Shown piece by piece: positions 2,713-23,396 of a stretch of 24,608 nt of DNA. The translations under genes were made by a program, and so were the position numbers. Source of the DNA: a virus; IMG/VR virus record IMGVR_UViG_3300025030_000402, positions 1 through 24,608 of that record, one strand, 5' to 3'. How positions within the stretch are numbered: position 1 is the first letter of the stretch; every line of letters starts with the position of its first letter. The notes under the pieces were generated by a model. The model made no database searches. It saw only the letters and a program-made list of their open reading frames with translations, and was not told the DNA's origin.

Positions 2713-2892
2713 ATGGAAAATCCATCTGATCTGGTCTTCAAGGCTAGATTTAAGTTGAATTTGTCACAACAGGAATTTGCGGCATTGATAGGAGTCCACC
2801 AAGGAACAATTTCCGCATGGGAGACGGGTGCCATGTGTCCCAATAGGATTCACATGGCAAAAATAAATCTTTTGTTGGAGAAAAAGCCATGA
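2713..2892 (+). CDS. Small XRE/Cro-type HTH regulator
   Basis: A 59-aa protein almost entirely made of a Cro/CI-type helix-turn-helix: FKARFKLNLSQQEFAALIGV, then HQGTISAWETG (about residues 8-40). The ATG at 2713 is chosen over an upstream TTG at 2668 because GAAAGG (2701-2706) precedes it. The stop overlaps the next start (ATGA at 2889-2892), so the two genes are translationally coupled. It sits immediately downstream of the AAACTCARTA array and is the obvious candidate to bind it, as regulator or origin-binding factor. Binding is inferred from location. Confidence 0.8.
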   Translation: MENPSDLVFKARFKLNLSQQEFAALIGVHQGTISAWETGAMCPNRIHMAKINLLLEKKP

Positions 2893-3269
2893 CTCCTACA
2901 ATGATTGACCTTCTCTCTTTTGAGTGGGAGGAGCAAAAAGAGATTGAAAATCATGCCGCTTCAAAAAGGCGGGAAATCGAAGCAAAGATTTTGGAATTGA
3001 TAAAAAAACCTGACTCTGCGGAGGGAACGACTCATGAGGAAGGGATTTTTTACAAGGTTTCCACGACTTTTTCACTTAATCGAAAATTATTAGATGTTGA
3101 AGAGGTGAAAAAGATTTGTCATCTCCTGCCAGCGGAACTTTTCAGGTGGAAGCCGGAAATTTCAGTTTCCGAGTTCCGCAAACTTGATGCGGAACAAGGA
3201 CGGATTTTGTCGTCTGCTTTGACTATATCTGAGTCGAAGCCATCACTAAAAATCGTTAGAAAAGGATAA
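2889..3269 (+). CDS. Conserved phage protein of the Sak4/SSB module
   Basis: A 126-aa protein with an acidic coiled N-terminal helix (EEQKEIENHAASKRREIEAK, about 14-33), then a beta-rich segment (IFYKVSTTFSLNRKLLDVEE) and a C-terminal part containing LFRWKPEISVSEFRKLD. From memory, similar proteins with an FRWKPE/FRWKAE segment lie beside Sak4-like ATPases and DUF669 proteins in many phages and have no established function. It is coupled to the HTH gene by ATGA, with five bases before the Sak4-like start. A role in recombination or replication is contextual. Confidence 0.65.
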   Translation: MTPTMIDLLSFEWEEQKEIENHAASKRREIEAKILELIKKPDSAEGTTHEEGIFYKVSTTFSLNRKLLDVEEVKKICHLLPAELFRWKPEISVSEFRKLDAEQGRILSSALTISESKPSLKIVRKG

Positions 3270-3273
3270 AAAA

Positions 3274-4029
3274 ATGGAAATAAAAAAGCCTGATCTTTTG
3301 CCTGTCCGAACCATTATTTACGGGTCGGACAAAGTAGGGAAGTCCAGTTTTGCGGCCTCCGCTCCGAATCCCCTTTTTTTGGATCTTGAAGGCGGTCTTG
3401 GAGAGTTGGCAGTTGACTGCGTAGATTTACGTAGTCAGGATTTTTCAGCTGTCATGTTAGTCATGGCAGAAATTTACAAGGACTCCAGGGGTTACAAAAC
3501 TCTTGTGATAGACTCCTTGGACTGGCTTGAGTCCAAGATTTTTGCTTCTGTTTGTTTGGCCAATAAGGTCAAAAACATTGAGGAGATTGGGTACGCAAAG
3601 GGGTATATATTTGCGCTCAATTTCTGGCATCAATTTATTCAGGGACTCGACGCCATCCGCTCCCAGTGCGGGATGGAAATCATTTGCATCGCACATGCGC
3701 AGATTGTGCATGTCGATGACCCCGCGCAAGTTCCTTATGATAAATGGGGATTAAAACTTCACAAAAAGGCGCACGCTTTATTTTGTGAGTGGGCTGACGC
3801 GATTCTTTTTGCGTCTTATGAAACTTACACTCGTCAAGTGGGTGAGAGTTTCAATCAAAAAATCAACCGTGCTTACTCAGCGGGAAACAGAGTGATTTTT
3901 TGTGAAGAGCGACCGTCTTTTGACGCTGGTAATCGTTTTGGCCTGCCAGAAAAACTTGAATTATCTTACTCGGCCTATGCTGCCGCTATTGCGCAATCAC
4001 GCGCAAATAAAACTCAAAAAGGAGAATAA
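3274..4029 (+). CDS. Sak4-like RecA-fold ATPase (phage recombinase)
   Basis: A 251-aa single-domain ATPase. Walker A is GSDKVGKSS (residues 17-25) and the Walker B-like strand is TLVID (76-80, Asp80); a sensor-like strand IICIAHAQ follows. This is the AAA_24/Sak4 pattern, the family of phage RecA-like single-strand annealing and strand-exchange proteins that act on ssDNA with an SSB partner. Genes two and three downstream are a DUF669 SSB-like protein and then a nuclease, the usual company of Sak4. The next start is only two bases after the stop, with AAGGAG inside the 3' end of this gene. Some phage annotations simply say AAA family ATPase. Confidence 0.82.
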   Translation: MEIKKPDLLPVRTIIYGSDKVGKSSFAASAPNPLFLDLEGGLGELAVDCVDLRSQDFSAVMLVMAEIYKDSRGYKTLVIDSLDWLESKIFASVCLANKVKNIEEIGYAKGYIFALNFWHQFIQGLDAIRSQCGMEIICIAHAQIVHVDDPAQVPYDKWGLKLHKKAHALFCEWADAILFASYETYTRQVGESFNQKINRAYSAGNRVIFCEERPSFDAGNRFGLPEKLELSYSAYAAAIAQSRANKTQKGE

Positions 4030-4031
4030 AA

Positions 4032-4298
4032 ATGTTTAAATTAACAGAAGAAACTGAAAATCGACTTTTAGTTGAAATTACCCTTCCAGAAGGGAGACCG
4101 CAAATCGCTTTGGTTCAAGAGGCAAAAACAGAAATCAAGGAATTGAAAGACCATTTTTACGGAAAAAAAGTCCGTCTTAATGGCCGGCTGACTACCGGCA
4201 TGGCATTGATGTTGGGGCATGAATTATGCCATATCTGCAAAAGTGTAGAAATTTTCGACCCCAAAGAGAATGCCTACCTTACGTGCATTTCTCATTAA
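4032..4298 (+). CDS. Csx3 (Crn3)-like small protein, candidate ring nuclease
   Basis: An 88-aa protein with AAGGAG before its ATG. The layout matches the Csx3 fold as I remember it: N-terminal strand (NRLLVEITL), a central VRLNGR strand-turn (47-52), a helix with His63 and His67, then VEIFDPK (Asp76, Lys78) and a terminal His88. In Archaeoglobus Csx3 the catalytic region has His60, Asp69, Arg71 and His80; the His-to-Asp spacing of nine and Asp-to-basic spacing of two are the same here, with Lys replacing Arg. Csx3/Crn3 degrades cyclic tetra-adenylate made by type III CRISPR systems, so a phage copy could be an anti-CRISPR. It lies between Sak4-like and SSB-like genes, so a housekeeping recombination role is the main alternative. 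Confidence 0.6.
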   Translation: MFKLTEETENRLLVEITLPEGRPQIALVQEAKTEIKELKDHFYGKKVRLNGRLTTGMALMLGHELCHICKSVEIFDPKENAYLTCISH

Positions 4299-4323: not shown

Positions 4324-4779
4324 ATGTCTAGTTATGAATTTGATGCAACGCAGGTTGATCCTCGCAGATCTTTTGAGCCTATCCCTGCTGGCACCTACCG
4401 AGTTATTATTTCTGCCTCAGAGATGAAGGACACAAAAGCTGGCGATGGAAAATACCTGAAACTCGAAATCGAAGTAATTGAGGGAGAGCATCAGGGGGCA
4501 AAGATTTTTGATAACTTGAATCTTGTAAACAAAAACAAAGAGACTAAGGAAATCGCTGACGCCAGTTTGTCGGCAATTTGCCATGCCGTAGGCAAGCTGC
4601 GAATCATGGATTCGGAAGAGTTGCACAATTTGCCGCTCATGGCAAAAGTCAGCCTGTCCAAAGCTCAAGACGGCTATGAGGCAAAAAATAAGATTTCGGG
4701 CTATTCGGCTTGTGAGTCCACTAAAACCTCAGCCAAACCCGCTCCACCTGTCACTACGTCAAAGCCTCCTTGGATGTAA
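4324..4779 (+). CDS. DUF669-family protein, probable phage ssDNA-binding protein
   Basis: A 151-aa protein. The ATG at 4324 is preferred over 4270 because GAAAGGA precedes it at proper spacing and the family usually begins as MSSYEFDATQV. Family features are the FEPIPAGTYRVIISASEMKD strand pair (about 18-37), GDGKYLKLEIEVIEGEHQGA, and a low-complexity tail of Lys, Pro and Thr ending PPWM. DUF669 proteins are widespread next to Sak4-like recombinases and are proposed to be phage SSBs. The tail here lacks the acidic IPF tip of bacterial SSB, whereas the nuclease and helicase downstream have one. Confidence 0.75.
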   Translation: MSSYEFDATQVDPRRSFEPIPAGTYRVIISASEMKDTKAGDGKYLKLEIEVIEGEHQGAKIFDNLNLVNKNKETKEIADASLSAICHAVGKLRIMDSEELHNLPLMAKVSLSKAQDGYEAKNKISGYSACESTKTSAKPAPPVTTSKPPWM

Positions 4780-4845: not shown

Positions 4846-4998
4846 ATGACTCAGTGTGAAAAAAATTGTCTCAGATTGATTCTTTGGGAACTGGAAGAAG
4901 CAAAAGGGAAACTCAAAAGTGATAGAAGAAAAATTTTAGGCGAATTTTTATGCACGCTCATGAATGATCCGGCGCGGATCATCAGGAGGAGCAAATGA
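4846..4998 (+). CDS. Small hypothetical protein coupled to the nuclease
   Basis: A 50-aa ORF with ATAGGAA before its ATG and an ATGA overlap with the nuclease start (4995-4998). The protein is charged and helical (LILWELEEAKGKLKSDRRK, about 11-29) with three cysteines and a basic C-terminus (ARIIRRSK). No family is recognised. Its likely purpose includes translational coupling of the nuclease. Confidence 0.55.
   Translation: MTQCEKNCLRLILWELEEAKGKLKSDRRKILGEFLCTLMNDPARIIRRSK
4966..4989 (+). promoter_or_regulatory. Palindrome and strong Shine-Dalgarno before the nuclease
   Basis: GATCCG-GCG-CGGATC (4966-4980) lies immediately before AGGAGG (4984-4989), a perfect ribosome site five bases from the nuclease ATG at 4995. 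Folding of the palindrome could expose or occlude the site, giving translational control. Confidence 0.5.
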
Positions 4999-5840
4999 AA
5001 CTACCTGAGCGGAAAGATCTAGTCGCAGAGGCCATATATGCGACTTATAAAAAAGGTGAACATCGCGCTCACCTCGGAGCTTCGCAGATAGGCACTGAGT
5101 GCGAGAGATCGTTGTGGTACACTTTTTTTTGGTGTACTGCTGTACAGCATGAGCCGCGCATACTGCGGCTTTTTGAGAGTGGGCATCTTTCTGAAACTCG
5201 TGTGCTGGACGAGCTTAGACGGGCAGGATTTGAGGTTTTTGATAAAGAGGTAGGCACAGGTAAACAGTTTTCTTTTAGTGCCTGCAATGGCCATTTTGGC
5301 GGTTCCCTTGATGGTTTTATCAAAGGAGTCCCCGATGCTGAAAAAACCGTGCATGTTTTGGAACTTAAAACCAGCAATGATAAAAATTTCAGGACTTTAG
5401 AAAAAGATGGAGTCTTGAAAGCTCATCCTGTCCATTATGCACAAATGATGTGCTATATGGGAGCGTTTGGGCTTGAGCGTGCGCTTTACATATCCGTGAA
5501 TAAAAACACTGACGAAATCTATTCTGAGCGCGTCCATTTTGAAAAGAGCGTTTATAACGCTCTTCTGGAAAAGGCTCTGCGCGTTATTGAATCAAAAAAA
5601 CCTAGTCCAAAAATCAGCGAAGATCCGTCTTGGTACCAGTGCAAACTCTGTGATCATGCTGGAGTTTGTCAAAATCATCAAAATCCAGAAAAAAACTGCC
5701 GCACCTGTGAATTTTCCCAGATCGGCGGAAATGGAACTTGGTTTTGCGGAAAAACAGACCAAATTTTGAGTTTTGAAGAACAGCTAAAAGGCTGTCAGAA
5801 ATACCAACTTAAAATTTTATTAGACGATATTCCATTCTGA
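4995..5840 (+). CDS. PD-(D/E)XK nuclease with Cas4/AddB-like Fe-S pattern
   Basis: A 281-aa nuclease. The catalytic core is GGSLDG (Asp106) and LELKTS (Glu123, Lys125), followed by HYAQ (Gln150). Cys36 plus CKLCDHAGVC (Cys216, 219, 225) reproduces the one-plus-three cysteine arrangement that holds a 4Fe-4S cluster in Cas4 and AddB. A second cysteine group (235, 238, 251, 267) resembles a zinc knuckle seen at the end of other phage proteins. It probably resects DNA ends to make ssDNA for the Sak4-like recombinase. The last residues are DDIPF, matching the SSB C-terminal tip. It is coupled by ATGA to the small gene upstream and followed by the helicase after ten bases. Confidence 0.82.
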   Translation: MKLPERKDLVAEAIYATYKKGEHRAHLGASQIGTECERSLWYTFFWCTAVQHEPRILRLFESGHLSETRVLDELRRAGFEVFDKEVGTGKQFSFSACNGHFGGSLDGFIKGVPDAEKTVHVLELKTSNDKNFRTLEKDGVLKAHPVHYAQMMCYMGAFGLERALYISVNKNTDEIYSERVHFEKSVYNALLEKALRVIESKKPSPKISEDPSWYQCKLCDHAGVCQNHQNPEKNCRTCEFSQIGGNGTWFCGKTDQILSFEEQLKGCQKYQLKILLDDIPF

Positions 5841-9800: not shown

Positions 9801-9881
9801 ATGGGTCTCTACTATGTTCTCTGTGTCAGATATCTAAGTAAACTGTGTGAAAAAAAAGGAAATAATGAGAAAAAAAACTGA
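9801..9881 (+). pseudogene. Remnant of a DUF1566-type C-terminus
   Basis: Bases 9811-9831 match the end of the intact DUF1566 gene (10478-10498) at 20 of 21 positions. In frame they read YYVLCVR, compared with HYVRCVR in the intact gene. The frame (from ATG 9801) continues for 26 codons without further similarity. It looks like the stump of an earlier DUF1566 copy left by duplication or recombination; it is not a template repeat, because sequence upstream of it is primase coding DNA. Confidence 0.55.
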
Positions 9882-10131
9882 TCTTAATCAAAAAAATCTT
9901 GTCCGCACACTAAAACAAATTCCTGGAGTTTCAGTTGTCGATTTATCGGCAGTTGGGCAGGGTTGTCCAGATTTGTTAGTCGGCTATAAAGGCAAAAATT
10001 TTCTATTTGAAATCAAAAATCCTGAGACGAAAGGAAAACTAACTGAGTGTCAGAAAAACTGGTTTTTATTTTGGAAAGGAAGTGCTTTTGTTCTTTATGA
10101 CATTAATGATTTTTTTGAATTAACGGAATAA
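9865..10131 (+). CDS. VRR-NUC-type PD-(D/E)XK nuclease, copy 1
   Basis: An 88-aa protein. ATG 9865 is chosen over GTG 9847 because AAAGGA precedes it and copy 2 begins with the same MRK-TDLNQK sequence. The VRR-NUC core is visible: GQGCPDLLVGYKG (catalytic Asp), FLFEIKN (Glu-x-Lys), then CQKNWFLFWKG with the conserved Gln. Stand-alone phage VRR-NUC proteins are thought to be junction-resolving or structure-specific nucleases. Its stop abuts the DUF1566 start. A second copy at 11615 shares 123 identical bases but has diverged ends, suggesting recent duplication or gene conversion. Confidence 0.8.
   Translation: MRKKTDLNQKNLVRTLKQIPGVSVVDLSAVGQGCPDLLVGYKGKNFLFEIKNPETKGKLTECQKNWFLFWKGSAFVLYDINDFFELTE
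9898..10020 (+). repeat. 123-bp exact repeat, copy in VRR-NUC 1
   Basis: Identical over 123 bases with 11648-11770, ending abruptly after GAAATCAAAAAT at both places. It covers the nuclease core and could support recombination that deletes or duplicates the intervening DUF1566 and methylase genes. Confidence 0.9.
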
Positions 10132-11488: not shown

Positions 11489-11637
11489 TTGATACACAAA
11501 AAATTGGCATGTTTTTGGAGCACGCTAAAAAAGTGTTGACCCAATATAATGATAGGCTTTTGGATATTGCTCATCGAGATGAGATTGGTGAGATTGATAA
11601 GAATGAGAAAAACTATGAGAAAAAGAACGGATCTTAA
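11485..11637 (+). CDS. Small hypothetical protein
   Basis: A 50-aa ORF with start overlapping the previous stop (ATGA, 11485-11488) and end overlapping VRR-NUC copy 2 by 23 bases. It is helical and charged, with ILE/LYS-rich C-terminus (EIGEIDKNEKNYEKKNGS). No family is recognised. The overlaps on both sides suggest it belongs to a translationally coupled chain. Confidence 0.45.
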   Translation: MIDTQKIGMFLEHAKKVLTQYNDRLLDIAHRDEIGEIDKNEKNYEKKNGS

Positions 11638-11893
11638 TCAAAAAGAGCTTGTCCGCACACTAAAACAAATTCCTGGAGTTTCAGTTGTCGATTTATCGGC
11701 AGTTGGGCAGGGTTGTCCAGATTTGTTAGTCGGCTATAAAGGCAAAAATTTTCTATTTGAAATCAAAAATACTAGAACAAAAGGGAAACTGAATGAGCGT
11801 CAAGAAGAGTGGTTTTCCGCATGGAAAGGTCAGGTTTGTGTTGTTAGAGATATTGATGATTTGCTAGATGTTTTGTGGTTGGAATATAACTAA
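11615..11893 (+). CDS. VRR-NUC-type PD-(D/E)XK nuclease, copy 2
   Basis: A 92-aa paralogue of the gene at 9865, with the same PDLLVG, FEIKN and Gln-Trp motifs. The ATG at 11615 gives the same N-terminus as copy 1 (MRK-RTDLNQKELVRTLKQ); an in-frame start at 11549 would add 22 unrelated residues. The central 123 bases (11648-11770) are identical to copy 1 while both ends differ (TRTKGKLNERQEEWFSAW versus the copy 1 tail), so only the catalytic core has been homogenised. Confidence 0.8.
   Translation: MRKRTDLNQKELVRTLKQIPGVSVVDLSAVGQGCPDLLVGYKGKNFLFEIKNTRTKGKLNERQEEWFSAWKGQVCVVRDIDDLLDVLWLEYN
11648..11770 (+). repeat. 123-bp exact repeat, copy in VRR-NUC 2
   Basis: Direct repeat of 9898-10020, 1750 bases downstream in the same orientation. 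Flanking sequence on either side has diverged, including third positions, which favours gene conversion of the core or an older duplication with purifying recombination. Confidence 0.9.
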
Positions 11894-12072: not shown

Positions 12073-12179
12073 ACTATCATAAAATGATTATTGCTCAAAT
12101 GAAACTGAAAAATATTTTGTTGCAAGGGGAAATTGAGCAAGACAAACGGATGAAAGAAAGAAAAAGGGACTTGTTATGA
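12069..12179 (+). CDS. Tiny basic ORF coupled to methylase
   Basis: A 36-aa Lys/Met/Ile-rich helical ORF linked by ATGA overlaps both to the membrane protein upstream and to the adenine methylase downstream (12176-12179). No function is recognised; its main effect may be to carry ribosomes onto the methylase start. Confidence 0.4.
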   Translation: MNYHKMIIAQMKLKNILLQGEIEQDKRMKERKRDLL

Positions 12180-12733
12180 AAGCACCATTTCCTTATTTTG
12201 GCGGAAAATCTGCTGTTGCAAAACAGATATGGTCTGCGTTAGGAGACCCTGATCATTATATTGAACCTTTTTTCGGTTCAGGAGCAGTTTTGCTAAATCG
12301 TTCCTGGACTCCCATCTCTGATTATTGTGAGACCGTCAACGACAAGGACGGCCTGCTATGCAACGTTTGGAGAGCTTTGCAAGCTGATCCAGACGCAGTT
12401 GCAAAATATTGTGATTGGCCTGTAAATCATGCCGATCTTTGCGCTAGACGCCGAGCAATGATTGCTGACCAAAATAATCTTTTAGAAAAATTTATTGCTG
12501 ATACGTCATATTATGACGCAAAACTCGCAGGTTTTTGGATTTGGTCTGCGTCCTGCTGGATCGGTTCAGGTTTAACCAATCTAAATGCAATACCTCATAT
12601 CAGTCATTCAGGCATAGGCGTACATGCTATTGGACAAATACCTCATATCAGTCATTCAGGCATAGGCGTACATGCAATAGGTCAGATTCCGCACATAAGT
12701 AATGCTGGCAAGGGAGTCCAAGACCCCCTATAA
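12176..12733 (+). CDS. Phage DNA adenine methylase, N-terminal part (frameshifted)
   Basis: 185 aa up to a stop in the shifted frame. KAPFPYFGGKSAVAKQIW (2-19) is the D12-class (Dam-type) SAM-binding motif, IEPFFGSGAVLL (28-39) follows, and NDKDGLLCNVWRAL continues the fold. The C-terminal residues are a tandem repeat of a 16-residue IPHISHSGIGVHAIGQ unit. The remaining half with DPPY is in the next frame from about 12729. Removing one C from the CCCCC run at 12724-12728 joins the halves as GKGVQDPYKLSIYEWF, so the intact gene would be 12176-13154. It would methylate adenines to evade restriction or regulate phage DNA; as written it is broken unless the frame is recovered. Confidence 0.8.
   Translation: MKAPFPYFGGKSAVAKQIWSALGDPDHYIEPFFGSGAVLLNRSWTPISDYCETVNDKDGLLCNVWRALQADPDAVAKYCDWPVNHADLCARRRAMIADQNNLLEKFIADTSYYDAKLAGFWIWSASCWIGSGLTNLNAIPHISHSGIGVHAIGQIPHISHSGIGVHAIGQIPHISNAGKGVQDPL
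12590..12721 (+). repeat. 48-bp tandem repeat inside the methylase
   Basis: Units at 12590-12637 and 12638-12685 are identical over the first 38 bases; a third, diverged partial unit runs from 12686 (IPHISNAGKGV). The period is 16 codons, so copy changes keep the frame. Related phage methylases carry IPHI/LPHL-type repeats in this region from memory, probably part of the target-recognition segment. Confidence 0.85.
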
Positions 12734-13154
12734 ATTAAGCATTTATGAATGGTTCCGTGAGTTATCAGAACGGTTACGTTATGTTCGTGTTGTGTGTGGC
12801 GATTGGTCACAGGTTTGTGGTGGGAATTGGCAAAATAAAATAGGAACATGTGGCATTTTTTTTGATCCGCCTTATTCTGCAGAGGCTGGAAGACTAAAAA
12901 AAATTTATGCTTGCGAGTCAACAACTGTAGCACATGATGTTAGAAAATGGGCAATCGAACGAGGATCAAAAAATGACTATAAAATTGTGATTGCAGGTTA
13001 TGAAGGCGAGCATGAATCTTTGTTGAATTATGGGTGGACTAGTGAGTTATGGAGTGCTAACGGAGGCTATAGTACAGCAGAAAATAAAAATCGGCATAAG
13101 GAAGTTTTGTGGTATTCACCATATTGTAAGAGAAGTCAACTAACTCTTTTTTAG
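12702..13154 (+). CDS. Phage DNA adenine methylase, C-terminal part (frameshifted)
   Basis: The frame carrying the catalytic motif FFDPPYSAEAG of N6-adenine methylases, preceded by LSIYEWFRELSERLRYVRVV and CGDWSQVCG. It is followed by a KIVIAGYEGEHE strand, GGYSTAENKNRHKEVLWYSP and a basic end. The ATG at 12702 overlaps the previous frame and probably is not a real start. The two halves together resemble a complete phage adenine methylase. Explanations are sequencing error, phase variation at the C run, or a recent inactivating mutation. The gene ends seven bases from the convergent lysis gene. Confidence 0.78.
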   Translation: MLARESKTPYKLSIYEWFRELSERLRYVRVVCGDWSQVCGGNWQNKIGTCGIFFDPPYSAEAGRLKKIYACESTTVAHDVRKWAIERGSKNDYKIVIAGYEGEHESLLNYGWTSELWSANGGYSTAENKNRHKEVLWYSPYCKRSQLTLF

Positions 13155-21446: not shown

Positions 21447-21830
21447 TTAATGCCATGTAATCACGCCATTGACCACAAAACTAAATGACCTTGTAACGAC
21501 CCCGCCTTTTGCCGCAGAGACTCCGACACTTGTAATGATTGCAGACATAGATGCCCAGGTTGCGCCTGTTCCCGTTCCCTCTGGATAGATGTTGAGTGTC
21601 ACAGTTGCGCCCACAGTCAGCGCCTGTTGCCCGTTCGTATCTGTTTCATCCCAGTAGCACTCCATTGATCCCGCTGCGCTAACCTCATCTGCGTAAACTG
21701 TTTTTGACGCTGCTCCCATCGCAGCCGCTTCAATCGTCCCTGCTGTCTCCGTAATTTGATAACTCAAAATCTCTGCGATTGTGTTTGTCGTAACCTTAAC
21801 GACGCCCTCTCGTCCTGAATGCATGCTCAT
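21447..21830 (-). CDS. Major tail tube protein, copy B
   Basis: A 127-aa beta-rich protein of a phage tail tube family: GREGVVKVTTNTIAEILSYQ (6-25), a MECYWDETDTNGQQALTVGA stretch (55-74), and GGVVTRSFSFVVNGVITW at the end. It should polymerise into the tail tube. It is a close paralogue of the preceding gene, differing mainly at the first 15 residues and in one loop (TGTGATWASM versus ATTGDQYGTC). Gene order (terminator, tube, gpG, tape measure) supports the call. Confidence 0.8.
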   Translation of the reverse strand: MSMHSGREGVVKVTTNTIAEILSYQITETAGTIEAAAMGAASKTVYADEVSAAGSMECYWDETDTNGQQALTVGATVTLNIYPEGTGTGATWASMSAIITSVGVSAAKGGVVTRSFSFVVNGVITWH

Positions 21831-21854: not shown

Positions 21855-22247
21855 TTAACTTACAGCGCCCCACGTAATCACGCCATTGACCACAAAACTA
21901 AATGACCTTGTAACGACCCCGCCTTTGGCTGCTGAAACTCCGACACTCGTTATAATTGCGCTACAGGTACCGTATTGGTCTCCCGTAGTTGCGCCCTCTG
22001 GATAGATGTTGAGCGTCACCGCCGCGCCCACAGTCAGCGCCTGTTGCCCGTTCGTATCTGTTTCATCCCAGTAGCACTCCATCGAGCCTGCCGCACTCAC
22101 TTCATCCGCAAAAACTGTTTTGCTGGCCGCTCCCATCGCCGCCCCTTCAATTGTTCCTGCCGTCTCCGTTATTTGATAACTCAAAATCTCTGCGATTGTG
22201 TTTGAACCTTTTTTAACTGTTCCTTCTCGTCCTGCGTGCGTTCCCAT
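21855..22247 (-). CDS. Major tail tube protein, copy A
   Basis: A 130-aa paralogue of the gene at 21447-21830, separated by 24 bases. The central part (about residues 16-83) and the C-terminal strand pair are nearly identical to copy B. Copy A ends in WGAVS where copy B ends in WH. Which copy forms the tube, or whether both do, cannot be read from sequence. Both have intact frames and their own start codons after A-rich leaders. Confidence 0.8.
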   Translation of the reverse strand: MGTHAGREGTVKKGSNTIAEILSYQITETAGTIEGAAMGAASKTVFADEVSAAGSMECYWDETDTNGQQALTVGAAVTLNIYPEGATTGDQYGTCSAIITSVGVSAAKGGVVTRSFSFVVNGVITWGAVS

Positions 22248-22438: not shown

Positions 22439-22885
22439 TTATACCGCACTTGTTGGAGATGTTTCCAGATTGCGATAAAGTGCAATATATGTCATTGTCA
22501 TAAAACCAACTTTTTGAGATGATTCCCTATCGTACTGAATTTTTGTATCCAATAATTTTGAGTCGATAACCAAATTTCCAAGCGATAAATCAGCACTCAT
22601 TGCAACCTCGATTTCTTTTGCGATTGTGTCCAGTGTGTCATCAAGATTTGTTGTGCCCATCGCAAGTGCTTCAATCATTACTGTCAATTCACGCTCTAAA
22701 ATTCTGCCATTGCCAAAACTCGACACATCCACACTGTCTGAGAGCGTATAGATAAGCAGACAAGGCAATTTCGATTCTTCCTGCGGATAGACACGGCTCT
22801 GAAAAACATTACTTCCTGTGGTCGTTAAACCCGTTAAAATAGTTCCTATTTTTTCTCTGATTTGTTGTCTTAAATGATTAGCCAT
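22439..22885 (-). CDS. Tail terminator (lambda gpU-like)
   Basis: A 148-aa protein capping the tail tube and joining it to the head. Typical features are the N-terminal helix LRQQIREKIGTILTGLTTTG, the VFQSRVYPQEESKLPCLLIY strand (about 24-43), a strand with ERELTVMIEALA, DTLDTIAKEIEVAM and a KVGFMTMTYIALYR end. The order FII-like, this gene, tube protein follows lambda-type tails. It overlaps the upstream MptE-like gene by eight bases. Confidence 0.8.
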   Translation of the reverse strand: MANHLRQQIREKIGTILTGLTTTGSNVFQSRVYPQEESKLPCLLIYTLSDSVDVSSFGNGRILERELTVMIEALAMGTTNLDDTLDTIAKEIEVAMSADLSLGNLVIDSKLLDTKIQYDRESSQKVGFMTMTYIALYRNLETSPTSAV

Positions 22886-23396
22886 TAAATACCGCGTTCA
22901 AATTTTTATCGAATGAAATTATTTTTCCGCTGCCTGGAAGAAGCTCTTTGATCCGTTTGTATTGCACCAGGTTTTGTTCGATTGTCCAAATTGGTTTTTT
23001 TTCATCAGATATTTGATACCAATAGATTCGCTCTCGTGAGTAGCAATCAAACCCTGCTAGATAAATTTCCGAAAAACCCATAAATGACGCAATCCAGATA
23101 GCTAAAACTCCTGAATACATGCACGCAGGTGCGTTACCACAATAAATAATGTTTTCGCCCGTTGTTAAGGGTGTAATTTTCTGAGCCGGATGAATCGCCG
23201 TTATCTTATGTGCAAAATTATCTTGATAAACGATATATTTTAGATCAGGCAAAATCATCGCGTGATGATTTATTCCGATTAAAACACAATCTCTAGGACA
23301 CTGCCAGAATTCCTGTGGCAAACTCTCTGAACCGCCCAAAATTGCGCAGCGCTTTCCTTCATAAAATTTTTCGTAGGCGTCCAAATATTCCATCAC
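22878..23396 (-). CDS. MptE/DUF115-like Rossmann protein in the head-tail region
   Basis: A 172-aa protein with a nucleotide-sugar or pterin-type Rossmann pattern: GKRCAILGGSESL (14-26), VLIGINHHAM (38-47), PDLKYIVYQD (51-60), CGNAPACMYSGVLAIWIASF (86-105) and GFSEIYLAGFDCYS (107-120). This layout matches MptE-like/DUF115 proteins, which include enzymes of pterin synthesis and flagellin-glycosylating Maf proteins. It sits exactly where lambda-type phages keep Z, overlapping the FII-like gene by four bases and the terminator by eight, so it is well integrated in the operon. A role in modifying virion or host surface glycans is speculation. Confidence 0.65.
   Translation of the reverse strand: MMEYLDAYEKFYEGKRCAILGGSESLPQEFWQCPRDCVLIGINHHAMILPDLKYIVYQDNFAHKITAIHPAQKITPLTTGENIIYCGNAPACMYSGVLAIWIASFMGFSEIYLAGFDCYSRERIYWYQISDEKKPIWTIEQNLVQYKRIKELLPGSGKIISFDKNLNAVFNG

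Follow-up and report, generated by a model that had tools for sequence, protein, structure and literature searches.

The window, by which we mean the whole 24,608-nucleotide (24.6-kb) stretch of an IMG/VR virus record analysed here, carries an HTH regulator and recombination, helicase, primase, replication and tail genes. The original prediction had singled out an 88-aa open reading frame at 4032-4298 as a Csx3/Crn3-like gene between a Sak4-like recombinase and an SSB-like protein. The frame and its length were exact, and the two neighbours proved to be AAA_24/Sak4 and DUF669/SSB proteins. All features of this early region lie on the plus strand:

2714..2892, plus strand: XRE/HTH_3 regulator, first in the early gene cluster (PF01381, E 1.1e-9)
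2889..3269, plus strand: phrog_2480, a conserved early protein encoded ahead of Sak4 (E 2.5e-23)
3274..4029, plus strand: Sak4-type recombinase, AAA_24 (phrog_124, E 1.1e-42; PF13479, E 3.5e-42)
4020..4024, plus strand: good ribosome-binding site, AGGAG, 7 nt 5' of the ATG (from the sequence)
4032..4298, plus strand: Csx3/Crn3-like gene of the phage branch, 88 aa, ATG start, TAA stop (protein MFKLTEETENRLLVEITLPEGRPQIALVQEAKTEIKELKDHFYGKKVRLNGRLTTGMALMLGHELCHICKSVEIFDPKENAYLTCISH)
4324..4779, plus strand: SSB-like DUF669 protein, 151 aa (phrog_6015, E 6.8e-45; PF05037, E 8.2e-24)
4995..5840, plus strand: Cas4-domain exonuclease of the recombination cluster (phrog_1990, E 8.9e-98)

The Sak4 stop codon lies 2 nt upstream of the Csx3-like ATG, and the SSB ATG follows 25 nt downstream of the Csx3-like stop. 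For the SSB, the start at 4324 is better placed than the ORF start at 4270; for the regulator, the ORF listing begins at TTG 2668 and the ATG is at 2714. "Cas4-domain exonuclease" is PHROG naming and does not denote a CRISPR gene. No link to a type III CRISPR locus was found within the window, as expected of a phage gene, and the tail, recombination and replication genes mark the Csx3-like gene as phage-encoded, as an AcrIII should be.

Several other genes in the window are described here in their own right. Two adjacent tail-region proteins on the minus strand (21447-21830 and 21855-22247) are identical at 108 of 126 positions, a tandem gene duplication, and a 172-aa protein amid the tail genes (GKRCAILGGSESLPQEFW...; 22878-23396, minus strand) lacks a Pfam match. 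On the plus strand, a small nuclease-like protein (QGCPDLLVGYKGKNFLFEIKN), also without a Pfam match, occurs in two copies (9847-10131 and 11549-11893; 66/92 identical), and genes for an Lcl_C protein and a methyltransferase-like product lie between them. A D12-class adenine methyltransferase (12176-13154, plus strand) is apparently split into two overlapping frames and adjoins an in-frame repeat (IPHISHSGIGVHAIGQ, repeated).

The Csx3 (Crn3) family, known from bacteria and archaea, comprises enzymes that break down the alarm molecule of type III CRISPR immunity. The product of 4032-4298 is securely a remote homologue of this family, and the similarity that profile searches had been expected to reveal was found. 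The PADLOC Csx3 model PDLC01040 matched residues 7-88 over model positions 8-81/84 (E 3.4e-6). When five close phage proteins were compared with 15 canonical Csx3 sequences, hhalign returned a probability of 97% and a score of 58, against maxima of 32 and 25 in 300 column shuffles and a score of 9.8 for the reversed profile; the window protein alone reached 95.8%. A tblastn search of plasmids with the window protein matched an annotated Nostoc Csx3 (E 6e-5). PF09620 gave no match to the window protein even at E 10, and searches of Pfam, NCBIfam, PHROGs and the PDB (phmmer) with the single window sequence returned nothing meaningful. Short, low-scoring Kelch and alcohol dehydrogenase matches were dismissed, as was membership of the SAVED domain (PADLOC E 0.03), for which Csx3 was far stronger.

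The predicted fold is that of Csx3, as the original prediction had anticipated. An AlphaFold (AF2) model from a six-row phage alignment (pLDDT 87.3, pTM 0.73) has the element order b-b-a-b-a-b-b, and its best 13 Foldseek matches in the PDB were all Archaeoglobus Csx3, AfCsx3 (probability 1.00, E 2.3e-4 to 1.8e-3, TM 0.59-0.69), including the cA4-bound 6YUD and the RNA-bound 3WZI. The next PDB match was the STAS protein SpoIIAA (E 0.07), and a search of BFVD with the window model found nothing under E 0.028.

Alignment with AfCsx3 places the key residues as follows:

4179..4187, plus strand: N50-G51-R52, equivalent to AfCsx3 S44-G45-R46, a cA4-contacting loop (alignments; AfCsx3 contacts from PMC7371418)
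4218..4220, plus strand: His63, equivalent to H57 (alignment; invariant across the phage family)
4230..4232, plus strand: His67, equivalent to H60, putative Mn2+ ligand in HxxxH spacing (alignment)
4257..4265, plus strand: Asp76-Pro77-Lys78, equivalent to D69-P70-R71 (alignment)
4293..4295, plus strand: His88, equivalent to H80 (alignment)

According to the AfCsx3 study (PMC7371418), H57, H60 and H80 are absolutely conserved and the key residues are H57, H60, D69, R71 and H80; H60A or D69A abolishes activity, R71A or H80A severely impairs it, and two dimers together build the active site. The catalytic layout given in the original prediction was therefore correct, and His67, Asp76, Lys78, His88 and the VRLNGR strand all stand where it had placed them. 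It omitted His63, the counterpart of the absolutely conserved H57. Across six divergent phage proteins, H63, H67, D76, P77, K78 and H88 are invariant in the alignment, and His88 is the final residue in five phage members; Cys66 varies (A or L in relatives).

The phage proteins also depart from canonical Csx3. The H57 and H60 equivalents are one residue further apart (HxxxH vs. the usual HxxH), and Arg71 of AfCsx3 is Lys78 in the window protein. P48 and W50, invariant in our alignment of canonical Csx3, are absent from the phage branch, which has no GPIW motif, and likewise from the cyanobacterial HxxxH clade described below; NGR is present in the window protein. The window protein stops at His88 without the C-terminal strand (GDxI), a tail kept by L180, an intermediate viral sequence, and by cyanobacterial sisters. 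Because the window protein misses PF09620 and the phage branch lacks both GPIW and the tail, we regard it as a divergent viral variant rather than a textbook Crn3. The Arg-to-Lys change had been named as a weak point, and the accessible text of PMC7371418 describes no variant with Lys at position 71. Still, it is no special weakness, because cellular Csx3 also carry DPK, namely the sister cyanobacterial proteins (Nostoc copies among them) and two others, L134 from an archaeon and L116 from a planctomycete. HxxxH and DPK occur together in L134 and in the cyanobacterial subfamily.

Scanning IMG/VR with two patterns and a profile retrieved four close relatives (L176, L177, L178 and L179; 49-54% identity) and the intermediate L180. 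The latter (L180/P0004) passes Pfam Cas_csx3 with 43.7 bits vs. a cut-off of 21, and PADLOC Csx3 also matches three relatives (1.5e-7, 7.2e-9 and 3e-15). Single-sequence searches of phages, viral contigs and genome contigs found no relatives, the Nostoc protein used as a scan query brought up none among viruses, and an alignment built from seven mixed sequences proved too divergent for scanning. One pattern match (L187) was by inspection an unrelated HNH-like protein. The relatives' contigs are mutually unrelated, range from 12.6 to 161 kb and flank the gene with small early-type or hypothetical genes; no neighbour was shared among them, and neither Sak4 nor SSB was seen beside the gene.

A scan of IMG/VR for Sak4 relatives yielded 80 loci, all of them lacking a Csx3-like gene; 75 were usable as Sak4-SSB loci, and in all but one of these SSB lay close behind Sak4. 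None of the 75 carried a Csx3-like gene, nor did the odd locus L076. The survey suggested to establish whether the gene is fixed in this operon thus gave a negative answer, and the gene is therefore accessory. A recent insertion is not arguable, as identity to the Sak4 relatives does not exceed 46%.

In a tree of 34 sequences, five phage proteins grouped together (support 100/99). In the same tree these form a clade with the cyanobacterial HxxxH Csx3 and L180 that is distinct from canonical Csx3 (100/99); no branching order inside that clade is settled. The cyanobacterial HxxxH subfamily was present in 9 of 20 cyanobacterial genomes, all 20 preselected as Csx3 carriers. In Nostoc UHCC 0302 the gene order is TIGR03985, csx3, csx3-AAA, cas10, csm2, csm3, csm4, csm5. 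Besides adjoining cas10/csm in this strain, sister genes are found no more than about 3 kb from cas10 in two other cyanobacteria. Of eight cyanobacterial neighbourhoods, two had cas10 and csm3 matching the Nostoc queries, and two or three had TIGR03985 without a cas10/csm3 match; cas10 linkage is therefore established for some of the cyanobacterial sisters only. Among sampled genomes with canonical Csx3, 9 of 10 had a match to a Cas10 palm family that also matches the E. coli control. Synechocystis slr7080, which probably belongs to the HxxxH/DPK subfamily, has been described only as a "putative ring nuclease", and deleting it left interference unaffected (PMC9676260). We found no biochemistry on any HxxxH/DPK member.

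Two further cellular forms were observed. A Pseudanabaena galeata plasmid protein (L195 3587-4912), a few kb from cas10, has two tandem HxxxH-type Csx3 domains fused to another, AAA-like domain, and its first Csx3 copy lacks the first His of HxxxH (AAKVGH). A large planctomycete subfamily (L097-L119, genome loci; YSIGV..PLPPLPEIPRG..VVIEGRAPIWRYG) groups with Pyramidobacter prophage copies in the tree, and most of its sampled genomes have a Cas10 palm match.

These prophage copies are canonical:

L088 3902-4186; L092; L096 8001-8276: canonical Csx3/Crn3 of Pyramidobacter prophages

They lie between a repressor and replication or recombination genes, with Sak4 downstream in strain C12-8, and another contig of the C12-8 genome carries cmr1, cas10/cmr2, cmr3, cmr4 and CARF-type genes (type III-B). 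The prophage clusters are early, with a LexA-type repressor and Sak4 or DUF2800/DUF2815, and one of the prophages is filed as a plasmid (NZ_CP133039.1). L093 is one more Csx3, and its contig also encodes a phage-type helicase.

Among 28,114 phage genomes surveyed in 2025, 36 were reported to have AcrIII-1, four Csx20 and two Csx16, while Crn3 was not named (PMC12409355). Our tblastn searches over 50,697 phage records found no Crn3/Csx3, and the accessible portions of open-licence papers on Crn4, Csx15 and AcrIII-2 contained no mention of a viral Crn3. The tail-less, divergent proteins described here are a previously unreported viral branch of Csx3/Crn3.

We consider it probable, if well short of certain, that the window gene encodes a viral Csx3/Crn3-type ring nuclease that hydrolyses cyclic oligoadenylate and so blunts type III immunity. 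A role in cyclic oligoadenylate signalling is supported by the residue conservation in six phage proteins and by the type III neighbourhood of sister genes. We also count as precedent the canonical Csx3 with Sak4 in an early Pyramidobacter prophage cluster of a cmr-bearing genome, and as support the mechanism and in vivo effect described for Csx3 (PMC7371418); counted against the ring-nuclease reading are Lys for Arg71, HxxxH for HxxH, the missing P48/W50 and the missing C-terminal strand. The protein would be produced early, together with the phage recombination proteins, and its dimers, as in AfCsx3, would form a head-to-tail stack enclosing a cyclic oligoadenylate, which is most likely cA4. 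One dimer face would give N50-G51-R52, D76 and K78; the other would give His63 and His67 as the site of a predicted metal dependence, and His88, which would touch the 2'-OH of the ribose. With cA4 hydrolysed, CARF effectors such as Csx1/Csm6 would no longer be activated, and loss of the signal would blunt the host's type III CRISPR immunity.

Csx3/Crn3 has so far been viewed as a host off-switch rather than an anti-CRISPR, and the discoverers of AfCsx3 considered its cooperative mechanism a better fit for a cellular regulator than for an Acr (PMC7371418). An anti-CRISPR role of the window gene is a well-founded candidate. The branch, phage-only in the contigs searched, together with the canonical prophage Csx3 would add another viral ring-nuclease family, and raises the question of how a cooperative dimer-sandwich enzyme could serve as a weapon, when its cooperativity had been seen as a safeguard of host immunity.

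There is still scope for a sponge or for a different cyclic nucleotide, given Lys at position 71 and the absence of both the GPIW loop and the tail. We think it unlikely that the tail-less branch, scattered among unrelated phages and with its remodelled site (HxxxH, Lys for Arg71, no GPIW), intercepts a cyclic nucleotide other than or additional to cA4; if it did, it would be an anti-signalling enzyme bridging type III CRISPR and CBASS. More specifically, cA3, cA5, cA6 or a CBASS product might be cleaved or bound, which could make the protein an anti-CBASS or broad anti-signalling enzyme. Consistent with this are the loss in the phage branch of the C-terminal strand and of GPIW, a loop in which I49 makes contact with cA4, a weak likeness to the C-terminal part of SAVED sensors (the PADLOC match above; PDB 6vm6, E 1.5) and the action of a phage-borne Crn4b on both cA3 and cA4 (PMC12830947). 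However, some cellular sisters in the same clade occupy type III loci, the Csx3 matches are orders of magnitude above SAVED and AfCsx3 is cA4-specific (PMC7371418), making such a switch of signal unlikely.

Stacked dimers could also act as a sponge that binds cA4 and cleaves it poorly or not at all. AfCsx3 R71A and H80A lose most of their activity, with Lys at the former position in the window protein, and H60A still makes cA4-bridged fibres (both from PMC7371418); Acb2-type phage sponges are also known. Yet the equivalents of H57, H60 and D69, residues of cleavage rather than binding, are invariant in 6/6 phage proteins, which argues against a pure sponge, as this would have no need of them, and DPK occurs in cellular Csx3 as well. 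We therefore judge a sponge decidedly unlikely.

A role on RNA or inside the phage's replication cluster, for instance in 3' trimming of RNA or in binding nucleic acid beside Sak4 and SSB, with the likeness to an alarm enzyme incidental, seems quite improbable. AfCsx3 was originally reported to be an RNA deadenylase dependent on Mn and has been crystallised in complex with RNA (PMC7371418), and the gene lies inside a recombination gene cluster, but the scattered, unrelated contigs of its relatives and its absence from all usable Sak4-SSB loci offer no indication that it is functionally linked to recombination. Chance likeness of a small unrelated phage protein could explain the lack of meaningful Pfam, NCBIfam, PHROG or PDB sequence matches to the single sequence, but is already refuted at the level of homology by the agreement of independent profile, profile-profile, fold and tree results and is next to impossible.

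Returning to the proposed viral ring nuclease, its closest known counterparts are the cyanobacterial HxxxH/DPK Csx3 (Nostoc WP_341531926.1 and WP_341531664.1; pSYSA WP_011153748.1, probably Slr7080), which are alike in sequence and share HxxxH, DPK and mostly (S/T)H as well as the clade. They differ in that they are encoded by cells, either within type III loci or next to TIGR03985, and in having the C-terminal GDxI tail, often an AAA fusion and in several cases NGP instead of NGR. AfCsx3 (Archaeoglobus fulgidus AF_1864; PDB 3WZI, 6YUD) shares the fold, the H57/H60/D69/H80 layout and the G45-R46 loop with the window protein, but has the GPIW motif, HxxH, Arg71 and the C-terminal strand, and is CRISPR-linked and termed a cellular regulator, not an Acr. 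The Pyramidobacter prophage Csx3 (WP_317539484.1) likewise sits in a temperate-phage early cluster, one copy upstream of Sak4, but with its canonical GRAPVW/HxxH/DPR it falls on the other side of the tree and is an independent capture. In the proposed role, the window protein resembles AcrIII-1 (DUF1874/Crn2), a phage enzyme removing cA4 with an unrelated fold and mechanism (PMC7371418). AcrIII-2, a viral SAVED ring nuclease, is also a phage enzyme against cA4; it differs in its SAVED fold (PMC12751052), which matches the window model weakly (E 0.2), and head-to-tail multimers have been reported for both AcrIII-2 and Csx3 (PMC13148439).
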